DNA of 64,000 nt from NCBI GenBank assembly GCA_900095095.1, contig FMBT01000358.1:175361-239360 (forward strand). Direction: 5' to 3'. The translations under genes were made by a program, and so were the position numbers. Shown here piece by piece: positions 26,132 to 34,742 of the stretch. The DNA comes from Fragilariopsis cylindrus CCMP1102 (taxonomy: Eukaryota > Bacillariophyta > Bacillariophyceae > Bacillariales > Bacillariaceae). Every line of letters starts with the position of its first letter. The stretch's first letter is position 1. The notes beneath the pieces were generated by a model that saw nothing but the letters and a program-made list of their open reading frames with translations, searched no databases and was not told where the DNA came from.

Positions 26132-27319
26132 ATGGGATGTGCAAGTAGCTCACCTCAAGACTCGATTGTTGCTGGGAATCGAAGTGACAATCCATTTGTG
26201 TTCTTTGAAATAGAGATAGGTGGTCGTAAAGTTGGTAGAATCGAAATTGAATTGCGAGCCGATGTTGTACCCAAGACTGCTGAAAACTTTCGTTGCTTGT
26301 AAGGATTGAATAATTTCGTTTCGTTTCTGAAACCGTTCATATATGGATATGGATATGGATATGGATACATATTTATATGTACTCATCGTGTTGGCGTTCG
26401 TCGAAGATTTCTTTTTTCTTACACTCGTTATTTTAATATACACATAACACACATTTGCAGGTGTACTGGAGAGAAAGGAAAGGGAAAGTATGTGACACAA
26501 AAAATACATGTAGTATAGATATATACGGTTGAAAGTCTTGTATCTGTAATCGTATATGCGTTATCATCCTCGTCAACATTATTCCAACGTGCGTGTACTT
26601 ACTTTTTATGCTCTCAATGATTCAATCTCATTTTCAAATCGAACTACAGAAGTGGAGTACCACTATCGTACAAAGGCTCGTCATTTCATAGGGGTAGGTA
26701 AATTTCCTAATAATGCTTCACTATAGTATAATATAATATACAATTATTATTCCATGATGGATTCTTTTTTTATCAAATTTACTCATCTTGATTTTTCTTC
26801 CTTTTCTTATTTGGATTTGACTTTTTTCTTAAAACAGTGATTCCAGGTTGGTCAAAAATATAATATGGGTATGGTATATCATCGTACAGTATCTTCACAT
26901 TGGCATATTCTCACTCCGTTGCATATTTTATTGTTGTTGTTGTTGTTGTTGTTGCTATTCTTCTTCAGGATTCATGTGTCAAGGTTAGTAAAAAAGAATA
27001 AAGTCTTCGTGGAATGAATCAATCAAACGGTAACGTCGTTAGGTACAAATGGTAGCAATAATGTGCACATGATTCTGGATTAATATCTTTTCCTTTTTAT
27101 TCGACTTTTTTTCTAATTCCTACACTAGGCGGAGATTTTACCAACCACAACGGAACGGGAGGAGAAGGTATATGGGGTGAAAAATGGAAAGATGAGAACT
27201 TTGAATTAATTCATACCGGACCAGGAATTCTAAGTAAGTATTAGAAAATCGGGTTTGGAGGCATGTTATATCATCGTACAATATCATCACATTAGCAGGC
27301 TCTCACTCAGCTCCATATT

Positions 27320-27351
<32 letters not shown>

Positions 27352-27559
27352 AATAATAGGTATGGCGAATGCTGGAGCAAACACCAATGGGTCTCAATTC
27401 TTTCTTTGTACGGAGCAGACATCGTGGCTTGATGGAAAGCATGTCGTATTTGGTGCAGTAACCAAGGGATTGGAGGTTGTAAGAGAGATTGAGAAGTTTG
27501 GAAGTAGTTCAGGCAAAACGAAGAAAAAGGTTGTGATTGTTGATTGTGGGGAAATTTGA
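26132..27559 (+). CDS. Cyclophilin-type peptidyl-prolyl isomerase with N-myristoylation motif, seven exons
   Basis: 188 residues in seven exons: 26132-26298, 26461-26487, 26650-26693, 26838-26846, 26969-26983, 27129-27233 and 27360-27559. All introns are GT-AG (162, 162, 144, 122, 145, 126 nt). The lengths sum to an exact reading frame and rebuild the cyclophilin core: [83 protein letters not shown]. The catalytic Arg (FHR), Gln (CQGG), Phe (QFF) and Trp/His (WLDGKH) are all present. The start MGCASSS fits N-myristoylation plus palmitoylation, unusual for this soluble family, and predicts membrane tethering. Exons of 27, 9 and 15 nt are extreme, and introns 4 and 6 share sequence (see findings). 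The splice model is inferred from conservation. Confidence 0.9.
26868..26955 (+). repeat. Intron 4 copy of a shared intronic sequence
   Basis: Within cyclophilin intron 4. It shares TATATCATCGTACA, TCACATT, TCTCACTC and CATATTTT in order with intron 6, and both end in a TTG-triplet run. Confidence 0.75.
27259..27350 (+). repeat. Intron 6 copy of a shared intronic sequence
   Basis: Partner of the 26868-26955 segment, in the same orientation, with the same block order and ending in a (TTG)n/(GTT)n run close to the acceptor. Confidence 0.75.
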
Positions 27560-29176: not shown

Positions 29177-30620
29177 TGTTGGGGTAAGACACGAGTAACT
29201 AGGGAATGACTGACCAAGGACAGACCAAATATTTCAATTGCACATGAATGGAAATACACGGGAATATTGGTAAGATTGTTGCTGGCGCGAGTGGGCGTCT
29301 AAGTTCATTGCGTGGAAAAGTACCCCCCCCCCCCCCCCAGCTCTATTTATTTGTGTGTAGCAGTAGAGAATGAGAGAGAGAGGAGAATGAGAGAGAGAGA
29401 GATTCTTAATCTAAAAATAAATATTTGAAAATAGCGTTAAGTACCCTAACTACATATTTTTAGCACAGGATTTTGCCCAGGTTTCTACGCGTTCTACTGC
29501 TGTTTTTAGTTGTTTCTGGTTTTATTTTGATTTTCTCACCCACTAGTGAAAAAGTGAAACAACATAACCGACTCGTTTTGACTACTTGGATTAATAATAA
29601 AAAAAGTGTTGAACTTAGTCGAATACTACAATGGAGAATCATGTTACGGAACACCTTCAACATGATTAAATATTTCAACTACACATGAAGTAGCAAGTAT
29701 GGCAATACCTCTTTGAACGATTCATACCACTAATTATGTTGCAACGGAGAATCATGTTACGGAAACACCGTCAACACGATCAAATATTTCAATTTACATG
29801 GAGAAGCAAGTACGGAAAAATCTAAAGTATCCCAACCGCGATCTTAAATTTTGATTACACATGAAAACCTTCCAGATTTTCATTTGCCTCAAGTCATTGA
29901 ATACACGCGAAATAATGATAAGACTACAACAGAAATTCACTCAAGCTTGGTCAAAAATTTCAGATGCACATGAATTGAAATACACAGGAATGAATGTGCC
30001 TACTCCTATTAGTAATGAGGATACTATCAAGAACAACAAAAGCTTCTGCTCACAATATTTGCAAATGGTCTTGAAAATAACAAGCAAAAGCTTCTGCTCA
30101 CAATATTTGCAAACAGGCTTGGAAATAACAACAAACGAAGTCAACAACAATAATGGTACATTCAACAACATTATGCAATTATTATTGCACCCAATCATAC
30201 CAGTTCACCCTTTTATTGAATATCATCAACCTGAACCTGAACCACCACCATTTAATTCTTATTCACTTTTATCTTTTTTTTTATTCATTGGAAAGACAAA
30301 ACAAAAGGTGGTACTATTTATCTTGAAATCCCTTATTAAAAACAACAACAGTGAAACTCTGAGCTACATCAACAATATTATAACAGTACTGACACACCAT
30401 GTATGGTCCAGTTCATCCTTTTCTGCTCCACTTCCAGATCCTAAATTCTTACAGATTCATATCAATCATACACATCTCACTTATACTAAAATAAATTTGT
30501 TTATACCAGAATTTAGATTCTGGAAGTGTGGGGAAGTGTAGGGGTAAGACATGAGGCACTAGTAAATGAACACTAGTACGAGTGGACTTGTACAGGGCTG
30601 ACCAAGGACATACCATGTAT
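29177..30620. repeat. Array of diverged direct repeats, possible transposon remnant
   Basis: Several related blocks recur in the same orientation. GGGGTAAGACA(C/T)GAG... with TGACCAAGGACA... occurs at about 29181 and again at 30541. ATTTCA..TGCACATGAAT.GAAATACAC.GGAAT occurs at about 29231 and 29957. GGAGAATCATGTTACGGA...AAATATTTCAA occurs at about 29633 and 29746. A 16-base poly(C) lies at 29323-29338, next to GA-rich sequence. The outer pair is 1.36 kb apart. No transposase or reverse transcriptase is visible, so this is a decayed repeat region at best. Confidence 0.5.
30037..30132 (+). repeat. Tandem duplication of 48 bp
   Basis: Two adjacent copies (30037-30084 and 30085-30132), each starting CAAAAGCTTCTGCTCACAAT. 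They lie inside an open but low-complexity frame (29861-30541) that I do not accept as a gene. Confidence 0.8.
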
Positions 30621-31458: not shown

Positions 31459-34400
31459 CTATATTTCGACATCGCTGCTGTTAGTACGAGTGAATAAATT
31501 TCGCAACGCTGCTCGTTCATCAACTTCGATATCCATGTGCCTTGGTTTGATACGGGCGATGTATATACTTTGGACACCAGTTTGCGTTCCTGTGACAGTG
31601 GATGCATCGAAAACACCTCGAGCTCCTTTGAGCATTGCTTCGCCTTCAACATTTTCTTCCCAACCAAGTCGTTGGACAAGCGTCTTCATCTGTTGAAAAT
31701 AGGCATTGATTATAAAAGAAGTCACGACGTTGCTAAGAACAATAACTCCCATGAGATGAAAACAGAAAAAGAAGATCCTGACCCACTTTGCTCCAGTGAC
31801 ATATTCAAAGCCAATTTCACATTCTGTCCAATTGTTGACAACCACCAGATTAAAGAGAACATTCATACCGCTGACCATGTCATTAAAATTATTAGCCCAG
31901 TACTTATTATCAACAAAGTCGTCAGCTTCCAAAAGGGCATACGAAAGAGGATTTTTCGGATCTCGCGTAATCACTAAAATAAGAATATGCACACAACAAA
32001 GTACGCAATAAGTTTCTGGTTTCAGTAAGACGTGCATTGGTTACAATAGAAGTGAGGAGTAGAGGGTAGTCAGCACAGACTACTTACATCCACCATAAAG
32101 GAGTACCCCCATTGACGCGAAAAAATATTCGACGAAGAAAAGAATCATGAATACACTGCTCGCAGCAGGGATAATATCAATCGTAATAGTTCCAAACATT
32201 TGAAAGGCTTTCATAGCAAATAATATACGTCCCAACCGAAGAACTCTTGCCATTACCACGAACTGGATCAGTGCAGAATTGCTATATGCGTTGGGATCTA
32301 CTCAGTGGATTGTGTAGTTAATAAGGGTAAGAGAACGAAATATAAGATAAGTTCAATTTGTTAACATTCAAAAGTAGGCGATTAAACTTACAATATACGT
32401 AAGCCGACGCAAGCACTGCCATTAATGTAATAGAAAAGTCGAACATGTTTCGTGGAGATTCCGAATAACGCTTCCAACCTTCAACCGTTATTTTCAAAAT
32501 AGCTTCCAGTACGTATACTACCGTGAATATAGTTTCCATAAGCTCCCAAATAGTATCAATATATCCATCACTATAATGAGGATCTCTGGTTACATCCTGC
32601 CCTGATAACATTGGGTAGTCCTGAAATGCAATAATCACAGCATTCAACACGAGGACGATGTCAAGAGCGTATTCAAAGCCCTTCGATTTCACAAATTTAC
32701 ACAAGCCTTGGTACCAATTAGATTGGTTTACTCGAGGGAAGCGGACTTCGACGAAGGTAGCATAGTCCGATTTCTTAGCTAAATCTAGAAGAAGAATTTT
32801 ACCGAAGTTTAAAAATTCATCCAGATCTATATCTGATGATCCATCTTTGTCAAGGAACGCAAAAATGATGCTTCTTTCATCTTTAGAAAGTTTTTGAATC
32901 TCGGGAACATCCTGATTCAAAATTAACATAGTAGCCATAACCGATTCGCGGTTGATTGAACCTTTGTTATCGTGGTCCAACATCTTGAAGGCCGTGGTTA
33001 GAAGTTCTTTCGATAATACGGCTCGAGATAACCTCCGTTCTGCAATACTTTCGTCATATCTGTAGAAAAATAGATAGTCATAGTAATGTGTTGCAAGCCG
33101 ATTAGACTTGGACCGTTAGAAATACAGAAGTACGACAGGGGAAGGTATCGAATAGAACCATAAAGTAATCCAAAATTCGGTAAATAGTTAACTTACGAGT
33201 TAACTGTAACAGCCAGAATCAGATTCATCAAGTAAAAGAAGGAGATAACCATGAAACTTATGAAATATAAGGCTGTCAAACGACTTTCATTGTAGGAGGG
33301 CATCATGACATCAGGGTAGTTTGCCGTAGTTACGCAAATCCAAAGGGTCCTGCGCAGCAACATCACAAACAAAAGAAATATACACCAGTAAGAATGATGT
33401 TGGATCATTGTTTAGTCGTCAACTTTTTTATCTTCCTACACTCACCATACGGCCTCTAATAAATTTTGAAAACCCTCGTTACCTTGCGGTGAATCATAGA
33501 AAATAATTACTCCAAACCATGCATAAAAGATGATTATAATGGCTATCAGAGATTGAAAAGGTAAGCCATCGAATTTAAAAATAGCAATAGATGGCAATGC
33601 AGGACCTACGAATCTCGACTGTGACTTGCCTCTTCGTTGATGGCCAAGGTAGCTACTGGTGATAACTTGATAACTTACCTAGCATTGTCAGAATGTAAGC
33701 CATTTCAGGAATCTATAATAACAATAGAGATGGCAATACATGAGTCTTAGTAGTAATATGGCTCTTCTTTAATGATAGCAGAGACAATGATTGGGTGATA
33801 ACTTACCATTTTTAGAAGAGTCCAGAGTTCTTTTTGAAAGTTACGCAGATGGCTTCCGAGAATCAGCATGCGAAAAATGGGGTTCAATACTGTATTGTCA
33901 ACAAGGACACCTGTCAATAGACAAGCAAGGATGAACAACCGAAACGAATGAATGCGTCTTTTATATCCAGGGTAGAAAAAAAGACGAAAAGTAAAACCGT
34001 CATCGCCCTTATAATAACAATAGACGACAATACATGAGTCTTAATTGAAATAATATGGCTCTTCGTTGATATAATGATAGGTTCAATAACGCACCATTTT
34101 AAGGATCAAAAATAGTAAAATAGTAAAAATACAGATCAATTCGACATATTTGGACTGTGAAACAGTCAACCACATCGCATCTGCGTTGGGATAATAATCT
34201 TGATTTTCTTCTCCATCAGCTGCGGTCCCTTTTGCGTTTAAAATAACCATACAGTCTCCATAATCGCTAAGGCTATTATTTAAGTTGTTTCTAGCAATTT
34301 TCAGATCCGAATCTCTACACCACTGTGGTGGCTCTATGAATGATAAAATAAAGAGGACCCAATTGGCTCCATAAAGCAGTCGTTTGACCCAGCTGTAAGC

Positions 34401-34742
34401 GACCAGTCGACCACAAACGAAGCTAATTGTGTTTCGAAGAATTGTATGTGTGTCATCTGTGTCTTCTGTATTGTAGGGATCATAGAATCCATCGTAAGGA
34501 GCATCCTGGTATCCCAAAACTGCATCTCGAATAAAAAAGGCTGCAGGACCAACACCTAACTTTTGGGCCTGTTGTCGCTCTTTTGACGAAAATGATTTCA
34601 TCATCTTGCGATACATCTTGTCCGAGAAGTTTCGCATGGACGAAGTTTTGTAAGCATTCAAACCGTCTTCGGGCCCCACACCCACGGCCGATCCGTTTGA
34701 GTCCCTTCTAAGGAGGGGGCTCGATTCTTCGGTCACTGTCAT
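31459..34742 (-). CDS. TPC1: Two-pore cation channel with EF-hands (TPC1-like), eight exons
   Basis: 862 residues. Exons: 34095-34742, 33807-34007, 33679-33712, 33446-33605, 33197-33349, 32392-33059, 32088-32297 and 31459-31973. All introns are GT-AG (87, 94, 73, 95, 137, 94, 114 nt) and the frame closes exactly. Two six-helix domains are joined by two EF-hands, as in plant vacuolar TPC1. Domain I has S1 near residue 122 (LYGANWVLFILSF), S2 LICIFTILLFLIL, and the filter TTANYPDVMMPSYN. The EF-hands are DHDNKGSINRE and DKDGSSDIDLDEF. Domain II has an S4-like segment with arginines (ARVLRLGRILFAMKAF), the filter LVVVNNWTE, and S6 LSNVVTSFIINAYF. Function: voltage- and Ca-sensitive cation release from an endomembrane store. 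Ion selectivity is not predictable here. Introns 1, 2 and partly 3 are related in sequence. Confidence 0.92.
33606..33678 (-). repeat. TPC intron 3, partial member of an intragenic intron family
   Basis: It starts GTAAGTTATCA like intron 2 and contains ATCAACGAAGAGGCA, close to intron 1 (ATCAACGAAGAGCCA). The 3' half differs. Confidence 0.55.
33713..33806 (-). repeat. TPC intron 2, copy related to intron 1
   Basis: On the coding strand it contains GAAGAGCCATATTA, then TAAGACTCATGTATTG and CTATTGTTATTATA before the acceptor. All three blocks occur in the same order in intron 1. Confidence 0.85.
34008..34094 (-). repeat. TPC intron 1, copy related to intron 2
   Basis: Coding-strand blocks GAAGAGCCATATTA, TAAGACTCATGTATTG and CTATTGTTATTATA, ending AAG at the acceptor. 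It is related to intron 2 along nearly its whole length, with a roughly 10-nt indel near the 5' end. Confidence 0.85.

Follow-up and report, generated by a model that had tools for sequence, protein, structure and literature searches.

Introns of a two-pore channel gene of Fragilariopsis cylindrus resemble one another and were probably multiplied by copying within the gene

Three introns of a two-pore channel (TPC) gene of Fragilariopsis cylindrus CCMP1102 are homologous to each other. Intron 1 resembles intron 2, and intron 3 resembles intron 2 together with the exon that follows it. We consider it probable that these introns were multiplied by local copying within the gene, with intron 3 arising first and intron 1 later. 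The gene lies in a stretch of 64,000 nucleotides, which was analysed as a whole and is referred to as the window.

The gene model spans positions 34742 to 31459 on the minus strand and consists of 8 exons encoding 841 amino acids. Among solved structures, the predicted protein matches TPC1 (3.3e-61). Pfam matches comprise Ion_trans (164 bits) and a pair of EF-hand_7 motifs, the latter barely above the cut-off (31.4 vs 30 bits). According to the available text of PMC11085791, the TPCs of diatoms fall into a TPC1 group, which has EF-hands, and a TPC-like group lacking them, and we infer that the gene belongs to the EF-hand-bearing TPC1 group. Eukaryotic TPC relatives were also sought in viral contigs, where none was found. 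As a separate observation, PF03842 has 27 matches in the assembly (the best with 757 bits), so that silicon transporter genes are present, in line with a diatom. The parts of the TPC gene relevant here are as follows.

34095..34742, minus strand: exon 1, 648 nt, 3' end AAAATG (gene model, Pfam, solved TPC1)
34008..34094, minus strand: intron 1, 87 nt, a copy of intron 2 that includes no downstream exon sequence (alignment score 89)
33807..34007, minus strand: exon 2, 201 nt, 3' end AAAATG
33713..33806, minus strand: intron 2, 94 nt, from which introns 1 and 3 are proposed to derive
33679..33712, minus strand: exon 3, 34 nt, 3' end CTAG, encoding the PEMA segment aligned to TPC2
33543..33678, minus strand: intron 3, 136 nt, a duplicate of intron 2 and exon 3 (alignment, tile scan)
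33543..33574, minus strand: decayed exon 3 duplicate that closes intron 3 with the predicted acceptor AG
33446..33542, minus strand: exon 4, 97 nt (gene model, TPC2 alignment)

Introns 1 (87 nt) and 2 (94 nt) contain the blocks GAAGAGCCATATTA, TAAGACTCATGTATTG and CTATTGTTATTATA in the same order on the minus strand, GTAAGTTATCA is common to introns 2 and 3, and ATCAACGAAGAGxCA is common to introns 1 and 3. These blocks, like the AAAATG/GT contexts ending exons 1 and 2, were found as reported in a preliminary description of this DNA, and its claim that the introns are copies of one another was borne out. Local alignment of introns 1 and 2 gave a score of 89, which lies above all of the 1000 dinucleotide shuffles (maximum 48; 0/1000 reach 89). 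When aligned over their full length, the two introns show 72 matches, 9 mismatches (9 of 81 aligned sites) and 19 gap columns. Since they differ to this degree while being identical between the two contigs that carry them, the copies can be called recent in a relative sense only. Introns 4 and 5 were considered as further copies and rejected, as the scores of the 5 comparisons with introns 1 to 3 were reached by 72–694 of 1000 shuffles.

The similarity of introns 1 and 2 extends from end to end without duplicated exons. Their 3' flanks are not similar, the exon after intron 2 having no sequence in common with intron 1, and about 12 nt of similarity were found in the 5' flanks. The 10 nt upstream of the two introns are identical at 8 of 10 positions, a value reached by 6 of the 2517 10-mers of the coding sequence with both sites counted. 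AAAATG occurs three times in the TPC coding sequence, twice at the sites of introns 1 and 2.

The acceptor of intron 3 had been placed at 33606, which proved to be wrong; homology to solved TPCs and pyrimidine content locate it at 33543. With an acceptor at 33606 the reading frame stays open, but 21 extra residues are inserted within S5 of domain I. Using 33543, exons 3 and 4 join as ..LLKMIPEMAYILTMLAIIIIFYAWFG.., which aligns without gaps to TPC2 (PEMA....LAI) and TPC1. The best solved structure over this segment scores 63.0 bits with the 33543 join and 51.9 bits with the 33606 join, and 15 of the 20 nt preceding the AG are pyrimidines at 33543 compared to 9 at 33606. On the strength of this protein homology, the acceptor predicted at 33543 is regarded as established.

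With this correction, intron 3 matches more than intron 2. Its score against intron 2 plus exon 3 is 69, compared to 50 against intron 2 alone (0/1000 shuffles in each case). The alignment to intron 2 plus exon 3 begins at GTAAGTTATCA and extends to the terminal AG; it contains 91 matches and 16 mismatches besides 50 gap columns, indicating an old, gappy relationship. The preliminary description had missed the duplication of intron 2 and exon 3 because of the misplaced acceptor. Its statement that the exons are not duplicated thus fails for exon 3, of which a decayed copy lies in intron 3. No second copy of the 201-nt exon 2 was found in the window by either tile scan or blastn scan. The start of exon 2 was also tried as a duplicated segment and rejected, showing no likeness to exon 3 (5926/10000) and weak likeness to the tail of intron 3 (753/10000).

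The tail of intron 3 (last 32 nt) aligns to exon 3 with a score of 22, which was reached by 4 of 30000 32-mers sampled from the window, where the sample may contain exon 3 and the tail themselves and the start of the tail was picked by eye. Among 32-mers ending in AG the score was reached by 3 of 7026, and by 1 of 1348 after a pyrimidine filter, the tail itself being counted in both. Exon 3 compared to intron 3 alone gives a weak, suggestive match (18/1000 shuffles reach the score), so that support for the exon copy comes from its collinear place behind the intron 2 copy. In the sequence, exon 3 ends in CTAG adjoining GTAAGT, and its copy now ends in ATAG, the acceptor of intron 3. The inner acceptor within the copy has been lost (TATAG to TTTAA). 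The coding copy of exon 3 is taken as the original because it encodes a segment common to other TPCs, as seen from the TPC2 alignment.

A tile scan of the whole window, carried out without gene models, recovers both the pair of introns 1 and 2 and the pair formed by intron 3 and intron 2 plus exon 3 (33552–33642 with 33684–33774). A total of 13 of 1235 tiles scored above 48, the maximum of the reversed-sequence control, which was reached by two control tiles. Five of the 13 belong to TPC introns, two to a pair of introns in a cyclophilin gene, four to a repeat array at 29.2–30.1 kb and two are weak. The weak pairs are AT-rich (26709–26799/27750–27845 with a score of 55; 38905–38991/39877–39972 with a score of 49; control maximum 48). 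The array (29226–30135) is imperfect and non-coding with copies 85% alike, and related clusters were observed on contigs C464 and C638. A blastn scan of the window at E<=1 yielded 7 pairs within 3 kb, including the cyclophilin pair and TPC introns 1 and 2; intron 3 was absent from them.

TPC intron copies are present on two contigs, C760 and C253, the latter region probably representing a second haplotype. No difference between the contigs was observed in introns 1 to 3, and five single-base differences occur in introns 4, 5 and 6. The identity of introns 1 to 3 on both contigs indicates that the intron copies predate the split of the contigs. Contig C253 (locus L002) also carries one extra base in exon 1 at 34251, which splits the exon 1 match there and represents either a broken allele or an assembly error.

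Two distant TPC-like paralogues were found on contig C90 (L082 and L083; identity reaching 36% and 27% in their best-matching stretches), with counterparts on C597. Both are without introns at the positions of introns 2 and 3 (25% and 17% identity in the aligned segment), which is counted in favour of local copying. Near intron 1, one of these two distant paralogues falls short and the other aligns with gaps.

A second intron pair of the same kind was found in the cyclophilin gene, which is likewise counted in favour of local copying.

26132..27559, plus strand: cyclophilin gene, 7 exons, six introns, 187 amino acids (Pfam Pro_isomerase, 159 bits)
26847..26968, plus strand: intron A, 122 nt, copy of intron B, flanked by exons of 9 and 15 nt
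27234..27359, plus strand: intron B, 126 nt, copy of intron A

Introns A and B align with a score of 129 (shuffle maximum 48; 0/300 shuffles; z 18.4; blastn 1.9e-22). The other 14 of the 15 intron pairs of this gene have z values of 2.3 at most, with 11 and 6 of 300 shuffles scoring as high for the next pairs, a1/a2 and a3/a5, respectively. Like the TPC introns, A and B are alike from end to end without 3' exon similarity, and their downstream flanks are unlike. The intron calls are supported by the comparison of the two contigs, since the exons are nearly identical and the introns differ. The micro-exons are located at 26838–26846 (9 nt) and 26969–26983 (15 nt), so that three introns lie within 24 coding bases.

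From the sequence, an order of events, a direction of copying for intron 1, molecular routes and splicing can be proposed. In a first step, an ancestor with intron 2 and without intron 3 would have undergone tandem duplication of the block of intron 2 and exon 3 (128 nt today), placing a second donor, GTAAGT, immediately behind the AG that ends exon 3. The old mRNA could then have been produced in two ways, either with the new donor spliced to the AG closing the second exon 3 copy, or with the donor of intron 2 spliced to the copied acceptor. Retention of both 34-nt exon copies would have caused a frameshift. With decay of the inner acceptor (TATAG to TTTAA), the second exon copy would have become intronic and intron 3 would have been fixed. 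In a second step, the intron alone would have been copied to the exon 1/exon 2 site, giving rise to intron 1; this target bears the same AAAATG as the site before intron 2. At the DNA level, a template switch may have jumped forward on AAAATG, copied intron 2 and returned to exon 2. Counting against this scheme, no microhomology except a G was found at the duplication junction and at the 3' end of intron 1.

Copying within the gene, one of the candidate mechanisms of the preliminary description, is thus supported. For its second step, the main alternative is reverse splicing, in which excised intron 2 would have inserted into its own mRNA at the exon 1/2 site, followed by recombination of the cDNA with the gene, and likewise for cyclophilin introns A and B. 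We regard this as unlikely on balance, though by no means negligible, and intron 3 would still require a duplication. The clean intron ends and the 5'-only flank likeness in both genes suit reverse splicing too: introns 1 and 2 as well as A and B are alike over their full length, 3' exon similarity is absent, and close copies were found in the same gene only. Furthermore, the last 12 nt of the upstream exons are alike in both genes, as expected if the 5' flank guides target choice; a template switch on AAAATG and 5'-exon-guided reverse splicing both account for this likeness at intron 1. Random window positions gave equally good TPC flanks in 24, 156 and 1135 of 20000 cases for lengths of 12, 20 and 35 nt, and equally good cyclophilin flanks in 69, 1806 and 202 of 20000 cases. 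Counting against reverse splicing, the flank signal thus fades with length in both genes at 20 and 35 nt. In addition, cDNA recombination usually removes neighbouring introns, but the cyclophilin gene keeps introns 9 and 15 nt beside A, so that A would have to be the source under reverse splicing. The exon sequence inside intron 3 is also left unexplained. For step 2 we therefore consider the DNA template switch slightly more likely than reverse splicing, because intron 3 shows DNA-level duplication in this gene and no close copies were found elsewhere.

Gene conversion that keeps old, independent introns alike, a further candidate named earlier, is improbable. The introns are 300–400 bp apart, a distance that permits conversion. 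However, the comparison of A and B across the two contigs revealed 31 variable columns; 17 of them separate A from B as fixed differences, and none (0/31) shows a conversion pattern. TPC introns 1 to 3 are invariant between the contigs and thus uninformative in this respect. The copy of exon 3 within intron 3 is not explained by conversion either.

Membership in a dispersed introner family of this genome would be in keeping with the end-to-end likeness of whole introns but is less probable still, and the introner-like transposition suggested previously found no support. In the 67.9-Mb assembly, the two longest blocks, GAAGAGCCATATTA and TAAGACTCATGTATTG, occur exactly at four places each, namely in TPC introns 1 and 2 and their C253 counterparts. 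At E<=10, a query with intron 2 retrieves only this intron, intron 1 and their two counterparts on C253, and an 82-nt query from intron A finds A and B on both contigs only. As the intron 2 query missed intron 3, older copies elsewhere with the divergence of intron 3 would have escaped it as well; at the sensitivity used, there are no other close copies. Instead of four or more similar introns spread over unrelated genes, by which introners are recognised, copies were found in the same gene and on C253 only, with close copies alone being detectable. The near-match GAAGAGCCATAGTA, accounting for 23 of 48 rows of a block search, was rejected as a further copy, since it belongs to an unrelated dispersed repeat in all 13 contexts examined. 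This repeat was observed at loci L007, L008, L009, L011 and others, near locus position 1501. In a local-repeat scan of 61 loci (215025 bases), no intron pair was recognised at the 9 loci examined closely, and the two known pairs reappeared at L084 and L085. These loci are a biased sample unfit for estimating a frequency, as many contain the dispersed repeat and three correspond to the window on C253.

Paralogous snoRNAs occur in introns of one host gene, but a conserved RNA element in each intron, such as a snoRNA, can hardly be what maintains the likeness, as Rfam gave 3 and 1 matches in the two genes, all below threshold and none near the gathering score, folding was worse than in most shuffles for introns 1 (z 1.39), 2 (z 1.85), A (z 2.23) and B (z 1.92), and intron 3 folds only slightly better than shuffles (z -1.10).

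Intron gain by tandem duplication and intron transposition are already known, the former having been shown in vivo; the comparisons made here refer to the available portions of PMC3443670, PMC2891723, PMC4974935, PMC8469720 and PMC9860276. In the potato RdRp gene, an intron was created by a duplication that spanned an intron-exon boundary (PMC4974935). As proposed for TPC intron 3, a tandem duplicate beside an intron became a new intron, most splicing signals are parental and former exon sequence was recruited. However, in potato an exonic signal was recruited as the donor and the acceptor comes from the parent, whereas intron 3 has an inherited donor and would use the terminal AG of the duplicated exon as acceptor, turning an intron and a whole exon into one intron. 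The AGGT exon-duplication model (Rogers; Drosophila cases, PMC2891723) likewise involves a local duplication with AG next to GT and one copy becoming intronic, but its duplicated block is exonic, while the TPC block includes a complete intron. In Arabidopsis TOUCH3 (via PMC4974935) a whole intron was also duplicated inside its gene. There, both flanking exons were duplicated and remain exons, whereas in TPC the copied exon has been absorbed into intron 3 and is missing from intron 1. Transposition by reverse splicing (PMC3443670) shares with introns 1/2 and A/B an exon-free intron copy elsewhere in the gene, the RNA step being putative for these pairs; intron 3 does not fit. Introners resemble each other to their ends (PMC9860276), as do the TPC and cyclophilin pairs, but the latter lie within one gene and no close relatives were found elsewhere. 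The introner survey retained families with four or more introns and excluded pairs from genes with similar protein products (PMC9860276); with these filters, same-gene pairs such as the present ones would be left out of it.

The combination of a parental donor with an exon-end acceptor, the absorption of a whole exon and the occurrence of same-gene copies in two genes within a single window represents a new variant. This donor and acceptor geometry was not met in the available portions of the five papers named above. Same-gene intron copies in diatoms were not found in the titles and abstracts retrieved from an open-licence library, although they may be in print elsewhere.

The birth of spliceosomal introns is a long-standing question, and the source of many intron gains, even recent ones, is untraced (PMC3443670). 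In TPC intron 3 the source is still legible, and the proposed path requires no change of the mRNA. Since a duplicated intron and exon offer two equivalent splice choices, the duplication need not be purged. Rather unlikely, though not negligible, is the wider idea that this diatom routinely multiplies introns within single genes in cis, either by reverse splicing into the own transcript or by template switching guided by the 5' flank. Two genes within one 64-kb window and a target resembling the parent's 5' exon end in both are in line with such routine copying. If it were true, introner surveys would overlook it, since pairs from genes with similar proteins, like families of less than four introns, are filtered out in them. 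Should same-gene copies be common in diatoms, the survey filter would have hidden a class of intron gain that is testable in any annotated diatom genome. On the proposed path, the TPC case would illustrate how a new intron can arise without a change of the protein.
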